Origin: Colwellia sp. 20A7
GTDB taxonomy: Bacteria; Pseudomonadota; Gammaproteobacteria; Enterobacterales; Alteromonadaceae
Direction: 5' to 3'
Length of the DNA stretch: 64,000 nucleotides
Assembly: GCF_009832865.1 (NCBI RefSeq)
Contig: NZ_CP047130.1
Location: 2,604,001-2,668,000 of the forward strand
Each line of letters begins with the position of its first letter. Within the stretch, counting starts at the first letter, position 1. Shown in pieces: positions 27,979 to 59,731 of this stretch. The notes under the pieces were generated by a model. That model had not been told where the DNA came from, searched no databases, and saw only the letters and a list, made by a program, of their open reading frames with translations. The position numbers and the translations under genes are program-made.

Positions 27979-30900
27979 TTATTGTAATTTAGCTAATAAC
28001 GCCTCAACAGGATGTTTGGCTTTCAGTGCTGTTAAACGTTTGACTTGTGAGCGACAAGAAAAACCGGTTGCTAATATTTGTGTTTGCTCCAATTTAGCTA
28101 ACTTGGGTTGCCAACTTAAATTAAATAATTCTTTTGAATTATCTAAATTAGACTTTTCATGTCCATAAGTACCCGCCATACCACAACAACCCACACTAAC
28201 CTTTTCTAAATTCAAACCAAAATGACTAAAAATACTCGTCCATTCGTTTTCACTATTTACTAAAGCTGTTTTCTCAGTACAGTGAGCAAATAATTTGAAC
28301 GCCTGTTGATTTTTATCAGCAATGCTTTTAAATTTTTCATCTTGTTCAGTAAACGATAACAACCATTCATGCGCGAGCAATACATTAAAATCACCGCGTT
28401 TATCACCCAAAATTTTTGCGTATTCATCACGATAGCAAAGCACCATCGACGCATCCATTCCTAGCATAGGTATATTCAACTTGGTTAGTTGATTTAAAAA
28501 ATCACTTGATGATTTGGCCGTATTAGCAAAACGAGCTAAGAACCCTTTAACGTGTTGAGCCTTACCGTTTGGTTTAAAAGGTAATAAAATAGGCTCTAAA
28601 CCTAATGCTTTTATTAACGCCATCATGCTTTCTACAGTATTAGCATCATAAAAAGATGTAAAGGGATCTTGTACAATTAATACATAACCTTTACGTTGTA
28701 AGTCCGTTAAACCTTGTAATTTAACTAAATCGAATCCTGAATAACCTGCTTTTTTTACTTGTTTTTTTAGCGTAGGAACACTTAGTAATGGGGTATTAAC
28801 ATAACCAATCGTTTTTTCTGATAACTTATCATAAGCATTTAAACTCAAAATACTATTCACTAATTTGGGCATTTTAGCCATTAATGGCGCTAATATTTCT
28901 ACATTAGCCACAAGATGATCTTTTAGTGGTCTAGGGTAACGTGAATGATATATGTTGATAAATCGACTTCTAAAATCTGGCACATCAACTTTTATTGGAC
29001 ATTGACTAGCACAAGCTTTACAAGCTAAACATCCTTGCATGGCTTCCATAACTTCATGAGAAAAATCATTTTCATTCTCAGATTTTTCAAAAAAAGTAAG
29101 CTTGAATTTAGCAATGGTAGAGTCTAATAGTTTTTTAACTGACCAATGATTTACTTGCGTTTCTAACGCTAATATATCAACACCTTGCTTCTCTAATAAC
29201 CTTAACCATTCACGCATTAAACCAGCACGGCCTTTAGGAGAATGACGTCTGTCTTTAGTTACCTTACTCGATGGACACATAGGACTATCAACATCATAAT
29301 TAAAACATAAACCGTTACCATTACAGTCCAATGCGGCACTAAAAGAATCTTTTACTGTAATAGGGATTTGTCTATCAAAAGAACCACGTTTAGTATCATC
29401 AACACTCACTAATTGCTCGGTCGAATCAATGGGGGTACATATTTTGCCTGGATTCATTTTATTTAGCGGGTCAAATGCGGCTTTAATTTTTCTTAATTCC
29501 GTAAACAATGCTTCGCCAAAAAATTCAGGGCCATATTCACTACGATAACCTTTCCCATGTTCACCCCACATTAAACCACCATATTTAGCCGTTAGTTTAA
29601 CCACTTTGTCAGATAAGGTTCTCAGTAATTTCTCTTGTTCTGGATCACACATATCAAGGGCTGGACGGACATGTAAAACACCTGCATCTACATGGCCAAA
29701 CATACCATAATGTAAATTATAACTATCAAGTAAGTCTCTAAATTCACTTATAAAATCAGCTAAATTTTCAGGAGGTACTGCCGTATCCTCTGCAAAAGCT
29801 AACGGTTTTTGGCTACCATCGGTGTTACCTAATAAACCCACCGCTTTTTTACGCATGGCATACAATTTATTGATACTACTTAAGTCCGAGGTAACTTGAT
29901 ACCCAATCACCCCACAAGCACTACCACGGTTACCACCATTATCTTCACTTGCAATTGTTTCATCCAAACCTGCAGTTAAGATAGCAACTTGCTCTGCTAA
30001 AGCTTCAACACTTGTACCGTTAAATTCAACAATATTAATACCATCCATGACTTTATTAGGCACGTCAGTAATCAGATCGCTTACGCTATGCCAAACAATA
30101 TCTTGTTTAGCTAGGTTTAACACTTTACTGTCGATAGTTTCTACTGAAGTCGCTTTCGCTCTTACTAAGAAAGGTGAATGACGTAATGCAGAATCAAAGC
30201 TATCATATTTAATATTGATTAACGTTTTAGCTGGACTAATAGGGGTAATATTTAGTGTAGCCTGACAAACAAAAGCTAAAGAACCTTCTGAACCAGTAAT
30301 AATTCGGCTTAAATCAAACGTATTCAGTTCTTCATTTTCACTATCTTGAGCTTGTAATACATTTTCCAAATCATAACCGGTTAAAAATCGATTTAAACGG
30401 GGAAATTTTTTCAGAATAAGCTCACGGTTATCAACACTAGACGCGAGAACCTGTTGAACTATTCTGCCATGACTAGTTTCTTCTTTTGCCAACGCTTGTG
30501 CTTGGGCAATAGTCATAGGTTCAGTATTAAGTACATCGCCATTAGCGAGTACTGAGGTTAAAGCTAAAACATGATCAGATGTTTTACCATACACTAATGA
30601 GCCTTGCCCTGAAGCATCAGTGTTGATCATTCCGCCAATAGTGGCACGGTTACTCGTTGATAAATCAGGTGCAAAGAAGAAACCGTGTGGACGTAAATAA
30701 TCATTTAATTGATCTTTTACAACACCCGCCTCAACTTTCACCCATTTTTCTTCAATATTAATTTCTAATACTTTATTTATATACTTAGATAAATCAACAA
30801 TGATACCAGGTGTTAAACTTTGCCCATTAGTACCCGTACCGCCACCTCTAGCACTAAATTTTATATCCTTGTAGGTATCTTCACTTGCCGTTTTAGTGAG

Positions 30901-31098
30901 CAAAATAATATCTTGTTGTGTACGAGGATTAATAACTAACTGGGGTAGTTGCTGATATATACTATTATCAGTAGCCACAGCAAGACGTGCGCTATATTTG
31001 GCACTAATATCACCAGTAAAATTTTTAGCTTTTAACGCACTAACAAAATTATCGTAAAGAGGAGAAAGGTGTGTTTGATGATCAATACGAGGTAGCAT
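27979..31098 (-). CDS. ydiJ: FAD-linked oxidase/Fe-S protein, YdiJ type (D-2-hydroxyacid dehydrogenase)
   Basis: 1039 residues (E. coli YdiJ 1018). The N-terminal half is a PCMH-type FAD domain (SARGGGTGTNGQSLTPG near 85-100, then the linked oxidase C-terminal domain ending MNPGKICTP). The C-terminal half is a GlpC-like iron-sulfur part with CLACKACASQCP (around residue 685), CCGMAG near 960 and GFSCRSQ near the end. YdiJ-type enzymes oxidise D-2-hydroxy acids; D-2-hydroxyglutarate is the substrate reported for the E. coli protein, and relatives act on D-lactate. Electrons probably reach the quinone pool. It is divergent from the GGDEF/EAL gene. Confidence 0.88.
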   Translation of the reverse strand: MLPRIDHQTHLSPLYDNFVSALKAKNFTGDISAKYSARLAVATDNSIYQQLPQLVINPRTQQDIILLTKTASEDTYKDIKFSARGGGTGTNGQSLTPGIIVDLSKYINKVLEINIEEKWVKVEAGVVKDQLNDYLRPHGFFFAPDLSTSNRATIGGMINTDASGQGSLVYGKTSDHVLALTSVLANGDVLNTEPMTIAQAQALAKEETSHGRIVQQVLASSVDNRELILKKFPRLNRFLTGYDLENVLQAQDSENEELNTFDLSRIITGSEGSLAFVCQATLNITPISPAKTLINIKYDSFDSALRHSPFLVRAKATSVETIDSKVLNLAKQDIVWHSVSDLITDVPNKVMDGINIVEFNGTSVEALAEQVAILTAGLDETIASEDNGGNRGSACGVIGYQVTSDLSSINKLYAMRKKAVGLLGNTDGSQKPLAFAEDTAVPPENLADFISEFRDLLDSYNLHYGMFGHVDAGVLHVRPALDMCDPEQEKLLRTLSDKVVKLTAKYGGLMWGEHGKGYRSEYGPEFFGEALFTELRKIKAAFDPLNKMNPGKICTPIDSTEQLVSVDDTKRGSFDRQIPITVKDSFSAALDCNGNGLCFNYDVDSPMCPSSKVTKDRRHSPKGRAGLMREWLRLLEKQGVDILALETQVNHWSVKKLLDSTIAKFKLTFFEKSENENDFSHEVMEAMQGCLACKACASQCPIKVDVPDFRSRFINIYHSRYPRPLKDHLVANVEILAPLMAKMPKLVNSILSLNAYDKLSEKTIGYVNTPLLSVPTLKKQVKKAGYSGFDLVKLQGLTDLQRKGYVLIVQDPFTSFYDANTVESMMALIKALGLEPILLPFKPNGKAQHVKGFLARFANTAKSSSDFLNQLTKLNIPMLGMDASMVLCYRDEYAKILGDKRGDFNVLLAHEWLLSFTEQDEKFKSIADKNQQAFKLFAHCTEKTALVNSENEWTSIFSHFGLNLEKVSVGCCGMAGTYGHEKSNLDNSKELFNLSWQPKLAKLEQTQILATGFSCRSQVKRLTALKAKHPVEALLAKLQ

Positions 31099-33520: not shown

Positions 33521-34603
33521 ATGAACAACCTATCAAGAAAAACTTACTCTACTGTAAATTTACCCGCATTATTAAGTAACTATACTCAAATTGCTAATCT
33601 CGCGCCGACAAGTAAAACAATTGCGGTTATAAAAGCAAATGCATATGGTCATGGTGCCGTCGAAGTGGCTAAATATTTAAGCCCACATGTACCTGCTTTT
33701 GCCGTTGCTTTTATTGATGAAGCAATTCAACTTCGTGATGCAGGTATAACATTACCTATTTTGATTATTGAAGGCGCGTTATCGTACCAAGACTTATCAA
33801 TTGCTTTAGAACAAAATTTTTGGTTAATGGTTCACTCTACCGAGCAAGTTAATTGGTTAAAACAATACCCTACACCCTATGTTGGTAAATTGTGGCTAAA
33901 AGTAGATACAGGAATGAATCGACTCGGTATAAAACCAAGTGATGTTGATGGTATTTTAACTCAATTTTCACCAGAGCAATTAGAAAATTTAGTACTTTGC
34001 ACCCACTTTTCAAGTGCAGATGAATTGGGTAACCCTAAAACACAATTACAAATTCAACAGTTTGAACAAGTAAATGAAAAACATGGCTATAAAAAGAGTT
34101 TAGCTAATTCAGCCGGTATTCTAAGTTGGCCAAAAAGTCATGGTGACTATAATAGACTAGGGCTTGCTCTATATGGCGCAACCCCAATACCTATTAATGA
34201 TTTACCCATTAAGTTAACACCAGTGATGACATTACAGTCTACTATTATGGCTTTGAGAAAATTAAATATTGATGAGTCGGTCGGTTATGGTGAAACATGG
34301 CAAGCTAAGCGCCCTTCTCTGATAGCCACGGTAGCAATAGGTTATGCTGATGGGTATCCTAGAAATGCTAAAAATGGTACGCCTGTTTGTATTAATGGAC
34401 AAATTGCAACGCTTGCAGGAAGAGTATCAATGGATATGATTACCGTTGATGTTACTGATATTGTCGATGTTAACGTTGGTGATAGTGTTGAATTATGGGG
34501 TGAAAACTTAACAATTGAAACCGTCGCAGAACACCTCGACAGTAACAATTATGAACTACTTACTAGGATATCTAACCGTGTTCCTAAATTTTATGTGAAG
34601 TAA
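33521..34603 (+). CDS. alr: Alanine racemase
   Basis: 360 residues, the family's usual size. The PLP lysine is in AVIKANAYGHG (Lys 38). Further family marks are CTHFSSADE, NSAGIL, the YNRLGLALYG phosphate-site region, the active-site GYADGYPR and the C-terminal RVSMDMITVD. Alr converts L-Ala to D-Ala for peptidoglycan. The ATG at 33521 lacks a strong SD, and a 38-bp tandem duplication sits directly upstream. The gene is convergent with queE. D-Ala made here is also the product expected from the D-amino-acid aminotransferase at 54.7 kb. Confidence 0.95.
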   Translation: MNNLSRKTYSTVNLPALLSNYTQIANLAPTSKTIAVIKANAYGHGAVEVAKYLSPHVPAFAVAFIDEAIQLRDAGITLPILIIEGALSYQDLSIALEQNFWLMVHSTEQVNWLKQYPTPYVGKLWLKVDTGMNRLGIKPSDVDGILTQFSPEQLENLVLCTHFSSADELGNPKTQLQIQQFEQVNEKHGYKKSLANSAGILSWPKSHGDYNRLGLALYGATPIPINDLPIKLTPVMTLQSTIMALRKLNIDESVGYGETWQAKRPSLIATVAIGYADGYPRNAKNGTPVCINGQIATLAGRVSMDMITVDVTDIVDVNVGDSVELWGENLTIETVAEHLDSNNYELLTRISNRVPKFYVK

Positions 34604-54673: not shown

Positions 54674-55534
54674 CTAATATGAAAATTTATTTTCTGTATA
54701 TAACGTTGATGCTTTCAACCAAATCTCACCCACTTTTCCAGTACCTACCGCTACACCATCTAGCTTAGTGACCGGCGCAATTTCTTTTGATGAGCTAGTA
54801 ATCCAAATTTCATCTGCAGCGCGCACTTCATCTAAAGTGACAATACGTTCTTGAACTGTCAATGTTCCATCTTTAGTCAATATATCAATGATTAAACGAC
54901 GAGTAACACCCGGTAAAATTTGGTTATCTTGAATCGGCGTAGCAATAATTCCATCTTTTACGATGAAAATGTTTGATGCACTCGCTTCCGTTAATTCATT
55001 TTTGCTATTAAACAATAAAGTTTCTTGGCTGCCGGCATCAAAGCCTTCTTGAAAATGTAAAACATTCCCTAACAATGAAGTTGATTTTATATGGCAACGT
55101 TTCCAACGCAAATCTTCTGTACTTGTTAAGGCATATCCATTACCAACCGTATCCAAACAAGGCGTTTTAGGAACAGGAATTTCAAAAGCCATTGCAAATA
55201 CAGTTGGAGATACGTTGGTAGGGAAAGCGTGAAAACGTTTAGTATCAGTACCACGGCTTACATGCAAATATAGCCCTAGAGGGCCACCACCATTGCTACT
55301 TGATAACTTGTCACATAAGGCTAACCACTGACTATCATCCCAATTTAACTCAATGCCAATAGCCTTTAAGCCATCATTCATTCTATCTATATGGGCTTGA
55401 AAGCCAACCATTTTGCCAAAGTACGATGGAATTACTTCATATATCCCATCACCAAATAAAAATCCACGATCTAAAGGGGAAATCTTGGCTTCTTCAATTG
55501 GCATATAATCGCCATTTAAAAATACTGTGCTCAT
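54674..55534 (-). CDS. Fold-type IV PLP aminotransferase, D-amino-acid transaminase type
   Basis: 286 residues of the class IV aminotransferase family. It begins MSTVFLNGDYMPIEEAKISPLDRGFLFGDG, typical of D-alanine aminotransferases. The PLP lysine lies in CHIKSTSLLGN, and NELTEASASNIFIV holds the conserved Glu. D-amino-acid transaminase moves the amino group between D-Ala/D-Glu/D-Asp and 2-oxoacids; an aminodeoxychorismate lyase or branched-chain role is less likely given the neighbours. It is the last gene of the six-gene D-glutamate/5-oxoproline operon and starts 41 bp after the DUF4392 gene. Confidence 0.85.
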   Translation of the reverse strand: MSTVFLNGDYMPIEEAKISPLDRGFLFGDGIYEVIPSYFGKMVGFQAHIDRMNDGLKAIGIELNWDDSQWLALCDKLSSSNGGGPLGLYLHVSRGTDTKRFHAFPTNVSPTVFAMAFEIPVPKTPCLDTVGNGYALTSTEDLRWKRCHIKSTSLLGNVLHFQEGFDAGSQETLLFNSKNELTEASASNIFIVKDGIIATPIQDNQILPGVTRRLIIDILTKDGTLTVQERIVTLDEVRAADEIWITSSSKEIAPVTKLDGVAVGTGKVGEIWLKASTLYTENKFSY

Positions 55535-55575
55535 TTTACTTTTCCTGATAATTTAAGTTTACTATTTAATTTTTC

Positions 55576-56430
55576 TTAACTGGCAGTTGGATAACCAATT
55601 AAGGATCTAATTCTTGCAATTAAGGCAATCCCTTCTGAAGCAGGAAGACTGTCTTCGGTTATTTCATTTCTGCGTGTTACACCATCAACACTGCCTAACT
55701 TTGAAATATATTTCAGAATCTGCTCTGGGCAGGTTTCATTCAATAAATCTTTTTTAGACCAAACACTTAAAAAGGCTAAAATACCATAAACGCCCCAATT
55801 TGATACATCACTTAATATCAATTCATCACACGTAGTCGCGGCAGGAACAATATCAAGTTTTGCTAATAGCTCTTTCACGTTCCCCATGCCTATTTCATTA
55901 CCACCATCACCAATAGCAATCGTTGGACAATTTGCTTCTGTCATAAAGAAATCAAAAGACGCTGATTTAGCACTTATATCTTCACCACGCATATTATGGT
56001 AATTTCCATTTTCCGCAGCGCCAGGACATTCAATAGCTATAATAGCTTGAGGTTTATACTGTAAAAGTGCCGCTTTCGCTTCAGCTAAACCAGATTTTTT
56101 ATCACCAACACTAATAACACAAACGTTATAATCATCTTTGAGTGCATTAGCCATTGGGTTACCACACACTAAAATAGGAGTGGCACCTAAAAGAGCCAAC
56201 GCTTTATATAAAATTAAAGCCCCTACAGGGCCGTCTGTTTCAAACGTGTCCAAAACAGGAAATCCAGTACCTATAAGCACTGTACCTTCTATATTGCTCA
56301 AAGATTTAGCCGCACGTAAACAATAACCTGAAGTAACTTGTTGTTGTAAATCCTTCATACCGCGTAAATTTCGCTCAACAAGCATGCATTCAATTTGTTC
56401 ACTAAGTGATGCTTCATTTTCTATATTCAT
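55576..56430 (-). CDS. DUF4392 protein (D-glutamate cyclase C-terminal-half type)
   Basis: 284 residues matching the DUF4392/GLUCM-like C-terminal family. Marks: VLIGTGFPV near 50-58, DGPVGALILYKAL, an acidic IECPGAAENGNYHNMRG, and IGDGGNEIGMGNV near 180. This family forms the C-terminal half of the mammalian mitochondrial D-glutamate cyclase, which turns D-glutamate into 5-oxo-D-proline. It sits in an operon with the N-terminal-half-type protein at 58919-59731. Whether this half is catalytic alone is not known from sequence. 27 bp after pxpC. Confidence 0.8.
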   Translation of the reverse strand: MNIENEASLSEQIECMLVERNLRGMKDLQQQVTSGYCLRAAKSLSNIEGTVLIGTGFPVLDTFETDGPVGALILYKALALLGATPILVCGNPMANALKDDYNVCVISVGDKKSGLAEAKAALLQYKPQAIIAIECPGAAENGNYHNMRGEDISAKSASFDFFMTEANCPTIAIGDGGNEIGMGNVKELLAKLDIVPAATTCDELILSDVSNWGVYGILAFLSVWSKKDLLNETCPEQILKYISKLGSVDGVTRRNEITEDSLPASEGIALIARIRSLIGYPTAS

Positions 56431-56457
56431 GTTTCTTATACCAAGCTTGATCTAATT

Positions 56458-57405
56458 TTAATCACAAACATTGAGTTTTTTACGATTAAAATAACTTAAA
56501 TTCAAATGAAAACAGTTATGTGCCTGTTCCATACTAATAGGCTCAAAGCGAACTTTATCGCCTTGTTTGAGTTGCCCTAACTTTGCAATATCAATGGATA
56601 TAACAGCGCCAATTTTAGGATAGCCACCAATCGTTTGTCGGTCATTCAACAACACAATTGGCTGACCATCTGCTGGGATTTGAATAGCCCCCTGACAAAT
56701 ACCTTCAGATAAAATGCCTTCAATATCACCCGTAATTTTTTTACCGGTTAACCGATAACCCATTCGATCGAAACTTTTACTCACGCTATAGTCACTAGAG
56801 TAAAATAATCGTTGTTGAAAAGATGAAAAGTTTTTTTGTTGATAGCTTGGTATTGTGCGTAACACCACGTCATTAAAATATTTTGGCCTTAATAATTCAG
56901 GTAAAACCAAATTTGTTTTTCTCTGTTGGCTAGCACAAGGCAATATATTGTCTTTTTTAAGCTTTTCACCAACTAAACCACCAACACCTTCACGACATAC
57001 CGTTGCAGTACTACCAAAACTTTCTTTGATAGTAAAACCACCAGCAACAGCCAAGTAACTTCGTATACCTTCGCTAGCAAACCCTAACTCAATAAGGTCG
57101 CCCGCTTTAATCGCGTAACTGCGCCATAAATCTTTGTTAGTATGATTAATTGACAGCGACATATTTGCACCAGTGACGGCAATAGTTGTATCAACTTGTG
57201 CAATAAGTGCTAAACCGCCAATACTAATTTCAATAGCCGTAGCATTTAATTCATTAGCACATAAGCGATTAGCCCATTGAAATGCCTGTAAATCTATTGG
57301 ACCACCATTGGTTAATCCAATATTAAAAGACCCAAAACGCCCAGCATCTTGAATAAGGCTTAGCATGCCTGGCTCTTTCACTAAAAAACCTGTAGAAAAA
57401 CTCAT
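56458..57405 (-). CDS. pxpC: 5-oxoprolinase subunit C (PxpC)
   Basis: 315 residues of the carboxyltransferase-C/AHS2 family. VKEPGMLSLIQDAGRFG starts it and GGPIDLQAFQWANRL follows; the glycine-rich MGYRLTG with SEGICQGAIQIP and the late LLNDRQTIGGYPKI are signatures of the KipA/PxpC protein. PxpC works with PxpA and PxpB to hydrolyse 5-oxoproline to glutamate with ATP. The start overlaps the pxpB stop by 4 bp (ATGA), a sign of translational coupling. Confidence 0.92.
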   Translation of the reverse strand: MSFSTGFLVKEPGMLSLIQDAGRFGSFNIGLTNGGPIDLQAFQWANRLCANELNATAIEISIGGLALIAQVDTTIAVTGANMSLSINHTNKDLWRSYAIKAGDLIELGFASEGIRSYLAVAGGFTIKESFGSTATVCREGVGGLVGEKLKKDNILPCASQQRKTNLVLPELLRPKYFNDVVLRTIPSYQQKNFSSFQQRLFYSSDYSVSKSFDRMGYRLTGKKITGDIEGILSEGICQGAIQIPADGQPIVLLNDRQTIGGYPKIGAVISIDIAKLGQLKQGDKVRFEPISMEQAHNCFHLNLSYFNRKKLNVCD

Positions 57406-58133
57406 GATAGTTTGCCAAATCCTTCCGGTAATTCACCACCTAATGATAAAAACTCATTCTTATCAATTGACTTAAACCTTACTTTATCACCAACTTTAAT
57501 TGGCATGATTGGAGTTGCCGTGACATCAAACATATCGACTGGGCATAAACCGACTATATTCCAGCCTCCTGGGGAGGTATTTGGATAAACAGCAGTTTGT
57601 TTATCAGCAATAGCAACAGCTCCTTTGGGCACTTTATTTCTTGGGGTACTTAAACGTGGTGAAGCAATTCTTTCATCAACTTCACCTAAATAAGCAAACC
57701 CAGGCGCAAAGCCGATAGCATACACGTGATAATCTTTAACTTGATGAATCTCGATTACTTGCTCAACACTTAATTTATTTCGTTGAGCAATAACGGTTAA
57801 ATCAGGCCCTGATTCTTCAGAGTAATATACCGGTAGCTCAATAATAGAAGATTGCTCTACATCGCTATCAGTTGCTGAATTATCATCTAAACGTCGTAAT
57901 AAAATTCTGAGTTTATTTCGCACCTGGTGATGATCGGTATGAAGTATATTAAATACCACTAACATCGATGCATAAGATGGAATTAAATCCACAATATCAT
58001 CAGACAAGTCAACCTTCATTGCTTGACGAATCAATTGTTCAACGTGTTTTATTTTTGCCGACGTGTCATCGCTAACTTCATCAGAAAAATAAATAATTAA
58101 CGCATTTTCACCTGCAATATTAATCGTTGGCAT
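57402..58133 (-). CDS. pxpB: 5-oxoprolinase subunit B (PxpB)
   Basis: 243 residues from the ATG at 58133, which has AAGGG 7 nt upstream and lines up with the family start (INIAGENALIIYF). An ATG at 58157, overlapping the pxpA stop as TAATG, would add eight residues and is the alternative. It is the AHS1/KipI family: VKDYHVYAIGFAPGFAYLGE near the middle, RLSTPRNKVPKGAVAIA, and YPNTSPGGWNIVG. PxpB and PxpC form the carboxyltransferase-like part of the 5-oxoprolinase. 4-bp overlap with pxpC downstream. Confidence 0.9.
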   Translation of the reverse strand: MPTINIAGENALIIYFSDEVSDDTSAKIKHVEQLIRQAMKVDLSDDIVDLIPSYASMLVVFNILHTDHHQVRNKLRILLRRLDDNSATDSDVEQSSIIELPVYYSEESGPDLTVIAQRNKLSVEQVIEIHQVKDYHVYAIGFAPGFAYLGEVDERIASPRLSTPRNKVPKGAVAIADKQTAVYPNTSPGGWNIVGLCPVDMFDVTATPIMPIKVGDKVRFKSIDKNEFLSLGGELPEGFGKLS

Positions 58134-58156
58134 ACTAAGCCCTTGTTCTTTTAACA

Positions 58157-58882
58157 TTAACCAATGAGCTCCAGAATAGATTCAATCGCCTGTACGCCTT
58201 CAATATTGTCGCCATGAACACACAAGCTATCGGCATTTAGAGTTAAAATGTTGCCACTTACCGAGGTAACGCAACCTTGCTCTTTCAGTTGTTTCACTTG
58301 AGCAAGCATTTTTTCTTTATTATGAACAGCGCCAGGCTTAGTGCGAGCTAACAATTTACCGTCGTCGTCATAACAACGATCCGCAAAAGCTTCGCTCAAT
58401 ATATCAATATTATATTGTTTAGCCTCGGCTCTGTGTTCTTCAATTTTAGGTGTCGCTTGTAACATTAATTTTAAAGGACGATGATAACGACTTAATGCAC
58501 ATAAAATAGCATCTCTGACTTCTTTTTTTACCATCATGTCATTATATAAAGCACCGTGTGGCTTTACATATTCCAATTCAATTCCTATTGACTTAGCAAC
58601 ACCATCAATAGCTGCCACTTGATACATGACCAACGCTATCAATTCCTCAGTTGAGCAATTAATTGAACGTCGTCCAAAACCGACCAAGTCAGGGTATCCT
58701 GGATGTGCACCAACACTAACGTTGTTCTCTTTTGCTAATGCTAGTGTCTTTTGCATCACTAAAGGGTCACCCGCGTGAAAACCACAAGCAATATTAGCTT
58801 GATCGATATGCGGCATAACTTTCTCGTCAAGCCCCATGGTCCAGCTACCAAAACTTTCGCCTAAGTCACAATTCAATTTCAT
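58157..58882 (-). CDS. pxpA: 5-oxoprolinase subunit A (PxpA, LamB/YcsF family)
   Basis: 241 residues starting MKLNCDLGESFGSW, the family hallmark with metal-binding acids, followed by IACGFHAGDP (metal His), VGAHPGYPD and YVKPHGALYN. PxpA supplies the hydrolytic part of the ATP-dependent 5-oxoprolinase. The start is clear. It follows the DUF1445 gene by 36 bp and leads into pxpB, so pxpABC are contiguous and in the usual order. Confidence 0.94.
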   Translation of the reverse strand: MKLNCDLGESFGSWTMGLDEKVMPHIDQANIACGFHAGDPLVMQKTLALAKENNVSVGAHPGYPDLVGFGRRSINCSTEELIALVMYQVAAIDGVAKSIGIELEYVKPHGALYNDMMVKKEVRDAILCALSRYHRPLKLMLQATPKIEEHRAEAKQYNIDILSEAFADRCYDDDGKLLARTKPGAVHNKEKMLAQVKQLKEQGCVTSVSGNILTLNADSLCVHGDNIEGVQAIESILELIG

Positions 58883-58918
58883 TATTTTTCCTTATTTCGC
58901 TAGTAATTTTAGCAAAAC

Positions 58919-59731
58919 TTATAACACTGCTAATGTTGAATTGGCAATATCGGTTACTAACATTTTACCTGGACTATGGGTTATACAAAACGGAGGCTTA
59001 GTTTGTTCTAACACAAGCTGTGGTGTTACACCACAAGCCCAAAATACCGGCACTTCGTTTTCTTTAATAGTGACACTATCGCCATAATCAGGTTTATTAA
59101 TATCATTAATACCAATAAGCTCAGGTTGACCAAAATGTATAGGTGCACCATGAACCGATGGAAAACGACTACATATTTGAATCGCTCTAATTGCATCTTT
59201 AGCTAACATTGGTCGCATACTTACCACTGTTTCACCGCTAAATCTTCCTGCAGTTTTGCAAGGTATATTAGTACGATACATAGGAACATTTTTATTTTCG
59301 CTGATATTGCGAATTTCAAGCCCATCAGCAATAAGTGCATCTTCAAAAGAAAAAGAACAACCCAAAACAAAAGTAACTAAATCATCGCGCCAAAGTTCTT
59401 TAATGTCAGTGAATTCTTGCTTAAATGTGCCATCAACAAATAAACGATAACCTGGGACATCAGAGCGAATATCAATATCTTTGCCCAAATCAGGTAAAAG
59501 ATAATCTCCTGCATTTTCTGACATGCCAATTAATGGACAAGGCTTAGGGTTAAATTGACAAAATTGTAAAAAGTCATTCGCCCAATCTTTTGGCAAAATA
59601 ACAATATTTCCTTGAACACAACCTTGAGCAAAGCCTGATGTGTTTTCTTTGAATTTATCATGACGAATTAATTGACGTAATTCATAAGCACTAAGCTGTG
59701 CTGAAGCGGGATCGTTAATATTTATAGACAT
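58919..59731 (-). CDS. DUF1445 protein, D-glutamate cyclase family (putative hydro-lyase)
   Basis: 270 residues matching DUF1445/PF07286, now named the D-glutamate cyclase family. Marks: [15 protein letters not shown] near 38-52, [40 protein letters not shown], and [12 protein letters not shown] followed by [11 protein letters not shown]. In mammals this family forms the N-terminal half of D-glutamate cyclase. Bacterial members (YcsI) often sit beside pxpABC, as here. It is the first gene of the operon; its promoter should lie in 59732-59960, divergent from pldA. Confidence 0.88.

Follow-up and report, generated by a model that had tools for sequence, protein, structure and literature searches.

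Six adjacent genes in a 64,000-nucleotide stretch of the genome of Colwellia sp. 20A7 (called the window here, at its full length) form an operon that is real and conserved. Its gene families are known, and what is new is their combination together with the missing glutamate racemase, MurI. The operon brings together the two cyclase-type families DUF1445 and DUF4392, the 5-oxoprolinase subunit types PxpA, PxpB and PxpC, and a D-amino-acid transaminase (DAT). We lean toward reading it as a D-glutamate (D-Glu) operon tied to peptidoglycan, in which DAT would be a source of D-Glu and the cyclase halves and PxpABC would join the metabolite pools around it.

All six open reading frames (ORFs) are located on the minus strand, from 59731 down to 54674, where the initial annotation of the 64-kb window had placed a six-gene operon. 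The ORFs and six Pfam matches confirmed it, the Pfam gathering score being exceeded by all six proteins:

58919-59731, minus strand: DUF1445, PF07286 'D-Glu_cyclase' (YcsI, UPF0317), first gene, 270 aa; PF07286 227 bits, cut-off 25
58157-58882, minus strand: pxpA, 5-oxoprolinase subunit A type, 241 aa; PF03746 298 bits
57402-58157, minus strand: pxpB, 5-oxoprolinase subunit B type, 251 aa; PF02682 217 bits
56458-57405, minus strand: pxpC, 5-oxoprolinase subunit C type, 315 aa; PF02626 277 bits
55576-56430, minus strand: DUF4392, PF14336 'GLUCM-like_C', 284 aa, with the metal-ligand set of TON_0340; PF14336 226 bits
54674-55534, minus strand: DAT, fold-type IV D-amino-acid transaminase, 286 aa; PF01063 152 bits

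From the first gene to the last, the successive junctions are a gap of 36 bp, overlaps of 1 and 4 bp, and gaps of 27 and 41 bp; the overlap of pxpB with pxpC had been annotated initially and is present (4 bp), and that of pxpA with pxpB (1 bp) had been omitted. The genome, a single contig of 4.58 Mb, contains one PF07286 gene, one PF14336 gene and one PxpA gene (the sole PF03746 match). Simple promoter and terminator patterns at the operon were found at no more than chance level.

We then searched named genomes with DUF4392 alone as the query, which under-samples more distant arrangements of the operon, and compared the best 80 of 173 matches. The order DUF1445-pxpA-pxpB-pxpC-DUF4392 was found on one strand in 74 of the 80 loci, counting one locus (L063) in which DUF1445 occupies two ORFs. 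Five of the remaining six loci are truncated at contig ends, and Oceanospirillum sanctuarii (L086) is the sole real exception. DAT follows DUF4392 on the same strand in 70 loci, directly in 27 and with a LysR-type regulator between them in 43; two of the ten loci without DAT stop right after DUF4392 and eight show nearly 8 kb without it. A gene for alanine racemase (Alr) comes right after DAT in 15 loci (assigned by clustering, with one member identified by TIGR00492 at 357 bits). The hosts, by record title, are mostly Colwellia and oceanospirilla-type gammaproteobacteria, genera that we take to be marine. No description of this operon was found in open-licence papers, judged by title and abstract opening. 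The genes next to the operon in the window were rejected as members: the downstream CBS gene (170-bp gap; its cluster is present in 5 of the 80 loci), the downstream helicase gene (cluster in 9 of 80) and the divergently oriented PLA1 gene upstream.

Across the phylum, 349 evenly sampled genomes included 10 with PF14336, 55 with PF07286 and 121 with PxpA (PF03746). Eight genomes had both PF07286 and PF14336 (P = 8e-6 by the hypergeometric test, which takes genomes as independent), G321 and G370 being the PF14336 genomes without PF07286. Together with the counts at the 80 loci, this showed an association beyond chance. The DUF1445 and DUF4392 genes lie within ~5 kb of each other in six of the 10 PF14336 genomes (G000, G387, G494, G579, G587 and G607), and DUF4392 is clustered with pxp genes in just three of them (G000, G387 and G494), so that the full operon is the arrangement of one lineage and not a rule of the family. 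An even sample of the class (274 genomes) gave PF14336 in 2 genomes, both with PF07286, and PF07286 in 6.

MurI is a studied antibiotic target, usually counted indispensable in Gram-negative bacteria. It was not found in the genome of the window, where the best match to the glutamate racemase model TIGR00067 reached 25 bits, which makes DAT a candidate, and in our view likely, supplier of the D-Glu that goes into the cell wall. The purely catabolic direction that had been proposed initially for the operon loses ground on this result. PF01177 detected a YgeA-type Asp/Glu racemase (L009) in the same genome and a chance match (L010), which was rejected as a racemase; it falls in a PanB-like gene (by eye).

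TIGR00067 was then run over 50 genomes, hand-chosen and related, 25 of which were reached via named loci with completeness unstated. In 32 of the 50, DAT and pxp genes are no more than ~5 kb apart; 23 of these had no MurI, 8 had a match over the cut-off and G632 (134.5 versus 146.7) was counted as having it. All 14 genomes with no DAT near pxp gave a TIGR00067 match over the cut-off; the pxp neighbourhood of 13 of them was viewed and held no DAT, six of the stretches reaching just 1.6-3.8 kb beyond the genes, and control genome G107 has no PxpA. The linkage of DAT to the lack of MurI was significant (Fisher P = 7e-6, with the 46 genomes treated as independent though related). In the window's own family, MurI was missing in 7 of 9 DAT-linked genomes versus 0 of 4 others, G579 being among the four (P = 0.02). 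The remaining four of the 50 genomes are G579, with MurI and with DAT in a salvage island, and three with DUF4392 operons without DAT nearby, of which G624 and G628 are without MurI and G631 is with it. No TIGR00067 match at E 0.001 was found in G527, G615, G616 and G622, all with DAT; weaker racemases could escape the model. A separate observation was made on Aliamphritea spongicola (L063:4607-5394), in which DUF1445 is split into two ORFs: no DAT is present at this locus, and its genome gave no TIGR00067 match over the cut-off.

The assignment of DAT was consistent with such a role. Its best NCBIfam models are those of D-amino-acid transaminase (TIGR01121 and NF005209, the top two of 22 matches), at 219 bits, under their cut-offs of 277 and 320. 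Its residues Y32, R100 and H102 correspond to the carboxylate trap described in the available part of PMC10003956, and with K150 the predicted protein has both the Y-R-x-H trap and the catalytic lysine by which a D-amino-acid transaminase is recognized. The R-x-H motif was present in 80 of 80 DAT sequences checked. An alanine racemase gene is also present in the window, outside the operon:

33521-34603, plus strand: alanine racemase (Alr), ~20 kb from the operon; TIGR00492 352 bits, cut-off 168

This racemase is homologous to the gene found after DAT in the 15 loci mentioned above and would supply D-Ala for DAT.

The reading that we favour starts from the observed gene order, families, conserved sites, missing MurI matches and linkage of subsets; every reaction in it, the direction of each and the stereochemistry of the 5-oxoproline step are inferred. 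DAT would exchange D-Ala and 2-oxoglutarate with D-Glu and pyruvate. In carriers with no MurI, including the genome of the window, DAT, together with alanine racemase, would probably be among the main suppliers of wall D-Glu, and in carriers with MurI, DAT could run as a salvage enzyme. DUF4392, whose two-metal site is intact, and DUF1445 would cyclize D-Glu or a gamma-D-glutamyl compound, giving 5-oxoproline, which PxpABC would reopen to glutamate with ATP. The operon would thereby join the pools of D-Ala, D-Glu, 5-oxoproline and L-Glu. A marine group that is apparently often without MurI and has a conserved operon as a possible stand-in makes the supply and disposal of D-Glu directly testable.

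Several results weigh against this reading. MurI-less carriers G624 and G628 have no DAT in nearly 8 kb after DUF4392, and 9 of the 32 DAT-linked genomes have MurI or a match near its cut-off. The YgeA-type racemase of the window's genome might supply D-Glu, and an enzyme of this type is the alternative source in MurI-less carriers. Many carriers are drafts of unstated completeness, DAT was viewed in the control genomes only near pxp, and the 50 genomes surveyed were chosen by hand and are related to each other. In three relatives (L214-L216) murI lies between zapA and metK (names by eye, murI by TIGR00067); the genes of this site were not found by tblastn, run with a positive control, in ~1.6 Mb of the window's genome, which would place the site in the rest of the 4.58 Mb, so that a clean loss of murI is not established. 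PxpC, moreover, is far below the PxpC equivalog model NF045499 (213.7 bits versus 500).

The same survey bears on a reading of the operon as pure salvage, in which D-Glu and D-Ala from peptidoglycan debris would be catabolized and no D-Glu would be made. A ~27-kb island of G579, a genome with MurI, fits this reading: it contains an amidase, a VanX-like D-Ala-D-Ala dipeptidase, DAT, NamZ (exo-N-acetylmuramidase), a MurQ-like end, a GH3 gene, a MurR/RpiR regulator, DUF1445, DUF4392 and an FAD/FeS oxidase, with NlpC/P60 and epimerase genes recognized by eye. We nevertheless consider pure salvage rather improbable, given that 23 of the 32 DAT-linked genomes are without MurI and that the salvage island of the window's genome (L208, 1.298-1.318 Mb) is 1.3 Mb away from the operon. 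That island comprises GH3, NlpC/P60, an L-Ala-D/L-Glu-epimerase-like enzyme (247 bits, cut-off 500), a symporter, a NagK-like kinase, MurQ, NamZ and a MurR-like regulator.

Salvage genes were found beside the operon or its parts in some relatives. In G387 it adjoins GH3, a sodium:solute symporter, a NagK-MurQ fusion, NamZ and a PBP4-like gene, and in G494 NamZ and GH3 are located within ~8 kb upstream; the intervening genes are a MurR-like regulator, a NagK-MurQ-like gene and a symporter, all three named by likeness to the G387 and G579 proteins. Most of the 80 loci showed no such genes close to the operon, their neighbours having been identified in part, and a fused amidase/beta-lactamase gene (cluster c34) is near it in 4 of 80. 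NamZ was present in 30 of the 349 genomes, including 5 of the 10 with PF14336 (P = 6e-4), an association that is weak alone, as all five genomes come from one family.

A second link to the cell wall came from fusion proteins. The query was DUF1445 joined to DUF4392, which favours fusions, and 58 of the 120 matches listed (of 795) carry both Pfam domains on one chain, including a Clostridia and a Gemmataceae record. Six proteins of 864-945 aa (P0253, P0254, P0268, P0272, P0274 and P0325) have the order DUF4392, MurD-like, DUF1445. Their middle part scored 183-196 bits with TIGR01087, missing the cut-off of 212, and spans at most positions 1-299 of 441 of the model, the last third being absent. 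MurD adds D-Glu to the cell-wall precursor, and the MurD-like fusions are thus independent support for the D-Glu theme. The connection to D-Glu and peptidoglycan made in the initial annotation is strengthened by these fusions, by the salvage neighbours and by Alr after DAT.

The linear route from cyclase to PxpABC, also proposed initially, meets a difficulty. If both acted on the D form, PxpABC would undo the cyclase reaction in a futile loop that burns ATP; if PxpABC used only the L form, the cyclase product would not be its substrate, and a further step or another cyclase substrate would be needed. The stereochemistry of PxpABC had rightly been left open, and we do not think that the sequence decides among the routes that avoid the loop.

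One such route, which we regard as possible with some doubt, is that DUF4392 makes 5-oxo-D-proline, DUF1445 epimerizes it to 5-oxo-L-proline and an L-specific PxpABC opens the ring, giving an ATP-driven, one-way conversion of D-Glu to L-Glu with no futile loop. The DUF1445 protein passed the 'putative hydro-lyase' model NF003969 (411 bits, cut-off 324) and is related to the solved structures 2pif and 3db9. A wide alignment of 128 rows has Cys65, Cys125 and Cys233 each in 127; together with three histidines, these near-invariant cysteines could belong to a racemase or to a metal site. The cysteines would suit a cofactor-free two-cysteine racemase in particular; they could instead bind metal. 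DUF1445 also accompanies PxpA without DUF4392: 46 of the 55 PF07286 genomes have PxpA versus 121 of 349 overall, and a pxp gene is present in 15 of 28 stretches that have DUF1445 and no DUF4392, as in the LysR-DUF1445-TRAP transporter-pxpABC cluster of L182. The other 13 stretches hold none, however, and we know of no DUF1445 racemase. Mouse D-glutamate cyclase, moreover, gives 5-oxo-D-proline, with no L-Glu reported in the available passages of PMC5339696.

A larger version of the epimerase idea would be that marine gammaproteobacteria repeatedly gave up MurI and obtain their wall D-Glu through the DAT of the operon, the rest of which would be an ATP-driven lactam valve: DUF4392 would close D-Glu to 5-oxo-D-proline, DUF1445 would be a new 5-oxoproline epimerase and PxpABC would reopen the ring, for a controlled exchange of D-Glu and L-Glu without MurI. 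We think this unlikely.

The DgcN-DgcA pathway of marine bacteria reportedly handles D-Glu by acylation, racemization and deacylation. DgcN, which we take to be the DUF1611 family PF07755, had no match in the genome of the window, a point in favour of the epimerase route. If the epimerase reading is right, the two systems would share the passage from D-Glu to L-Glu via an N-acylated intermediate, whereas the operon would use a lactam rather than an acetyl group, with different enzymes and no DgcN family. The DgcN-DgcA pathway is mentioned in the available passages of PMC10845958 and PMC12363236.

We then examined pxp clusters detached from the cyclase genes. pxpABC and DAT occur together without adjoining cyclase halves in G285, G527, G536 and G547 (L158, L159, L211 and L212), and a cysteine-synthase-like (CysK-like) gene, pxpABC, DAT and Alr are together in G599 and G607 (L162 and L168). 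No PF07286 or PF14336 match was found in the whole genomes of G285, G527, G536, G547 and G599; G607 has the pair elsewhere, without pxp (L137). The clusters in cyclase-free genomes suggest that PxpABC yields D-Glu, and we infer a metabolite common to DAT and PxpABC, in the simplest case D-Glu formed from 5-oxo-D-proline. They fit an L-only PxpABC, and hence the epimerase route, poorly. The parts vary further: three Pseudoalteromonas (mega)plasmids have GH3-DUF1445-pxpA-DUF4392-DAT without pxpBC, and the G387 cluster has pxpB and pxpC and no pxpA. As a side observation, pyridoxal-phosphate (PLP) enzymes of the cysteine synthase/desulfhydrase fold recur by the operon, its parts or a salvage island (L026, L162, L168, L137 and L208).

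A tree of PxpA was built from 63 chosen rows (22 of the 80 loci picked for spread, the window and later loci, with G536 and G547 left out). It grouped 27 DUF4392-operon rows and 4 rows of clusters with DAT only, 31 in all, with support of 99/94; no DAT was seen at two of the 27 (L017 and L073). The PxpC tree was less clear, G285 being outside the set and G387 on a long branch.

The shared D-Glu intermediate suggested by both kinds of detached cluster would also suit a cyclotransferase route, in which DUF4392 and DUF1445 would free 5-oxo-D-proline from gamma-D-Glu peptides of murein, PxpABC would convert it to D-Glu, DAT would pass the nitrogen to D-Ala and Alr would give L-Ala. This route accounts for every gene with no futile loop and agrees with the salvage neighbours. 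It is less attractive in that the salvage island of the window's genome already has NlpC/P60 and the L-Ala-D/L-Glu-epimerase-like enzyme, that the cyclisation documented in the available part of PMC5339696 is of D-Glu by the mouse enzyme only, and that PxpABC is documented for 5-oxo-L-proline in that of PMC13274462; we hold it to be improbable on balance.

The individual subunits were compared with curated models. PxpA passed the subfamily models NF003816 (341 bits versus 213) and NF003814 (284 versus 226) and did not reach the cut-offs of three PxpA equivalog models. PxpB passed TIGR00370 (162.3 bits versus 145.6) and PxpC the domain model TIGR00724 (251.5 bits versus 230.2). Since PxpC missed its equivalog cut-off, we call the complex PxpABC-type and do not file it as the curated enzyme. 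Bacterial 5-oxoprolinase PxpABC, reportedly described by Niehaus in 2017, has the three subunit families in the same order, and ATP-dependent hydrolysis of 5-oxoproline is the putative activity of the complex; the operon differs in adding DAT and DUF4392, in the PxpC score and in a PxpA that falls in a mostly DAT-linked set. The pxp operon of Bacillus subtilis carries ycsI (available part of PMC10448178), which by name is DUF1445/UPF0317, so that DUF1445 stands with pxp there as it does here.

PxpABC returns spontaneously formed 5-oxoproline to glutamate, according to the available passages of PMC13274462 and PMC10448178, and the complex might do no more than this damage repair, adjoining DAT since the D-Glu pool cyclizes too, with DUF1445 and DUF4392 acting on another substrate. 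The single PxpA gene of the genome and the quite different neighbourhoods of DUF4392 on six alpha- and betaproteobacterial plasmids would agree with damage repair. However, pxpABC stands between genes of the two cyclase families in 74 of 80 loci, and the two domains are joined in the 58 listed fusions noted above, and we consider it unlikely.

DUF4392 itself had no NCBIfam match and is related to the structures 4dwz/5gkx. Its residues E64, D66, E134, D175, E179 and D260 correspond to the six metal ligands of TON_0340 given in the available part of PMC5132392, each kept in 108 or 109 of 109 alignment rows. The weak Mn-dependent phosphatase activity reported there is no argument for a cyclase. 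The same source describes animal D-glutamate cyclase as a two-domain protein of PF07286 and PF14336. Comparison with the mammalian enzyme (DGLUCY, 9030617O03Rik; available part of PMC5339696) showed that both domains are encoded together in the operon, on separate genes with pxpABC between them, whereas assays of the mouse enzyme used the fused protein. Conversion of D-Glu to 5-oxo-D-proline is a putative activity of the operon's DUF1445 and DUF4392. The term 'cyclase halves' used initially stands as a family name, which goes with the fused mammalian enzyme; a D-Glu assay of a single half was not found in the available passages of the papers. The operon is a bacterial system in which the two human D-glutamate cyclase domains can be studied one by one, and it connects named genes with the turnover of D-amino acids of peptidoglycan in the sea.

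With the DAT and alanine racemase system as a source of D-Glu (D-Ala transaminase, EC 2.6.1.21), the operon shares the carboxylate-trap residues, Alr beside DAT in 15 of 80 loci and alr in the window. It differs in that DAT is accompanied by pxp and cyclase-type genes and that MurI was frequently not detected in its gammaproteobacterial hosts.

Further observations were made on plasmids. In L130, L132 and L133 (two rhizobial plasmids and one of Paraburkholderia) two DUF4392 genes flank a 'selenocysteine synthase' gene, with oxidoreductase and aldehyde dehydrogenase genes as neighbours and, in the rhizobia, amino-acid ABC transporters; these DUF4392 proteins probably have another substrate. On an Agrobacterium plasmid (L129), DUF4392 has a hydroxyaspartate ammonia-lyase-like gene on one side and a RidA gene on the other, and the bhc beta-hydroxyaspartate cluster is found a few kb away. 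A tblastn search of plasmids with DUF1445 matched 240 records, 93 of them from Klebsiella; among the 40 matches listed, many from Klebsiella also touch PxpA and two from Lactiplantibacillus touch a biotin carboxylase gene. In the window itself, positions 27979-31098 encode a 1039-aa FAD/Fe-S oxidase resembling D-2-hydroxyglutarate dehydrogenase (by eye).

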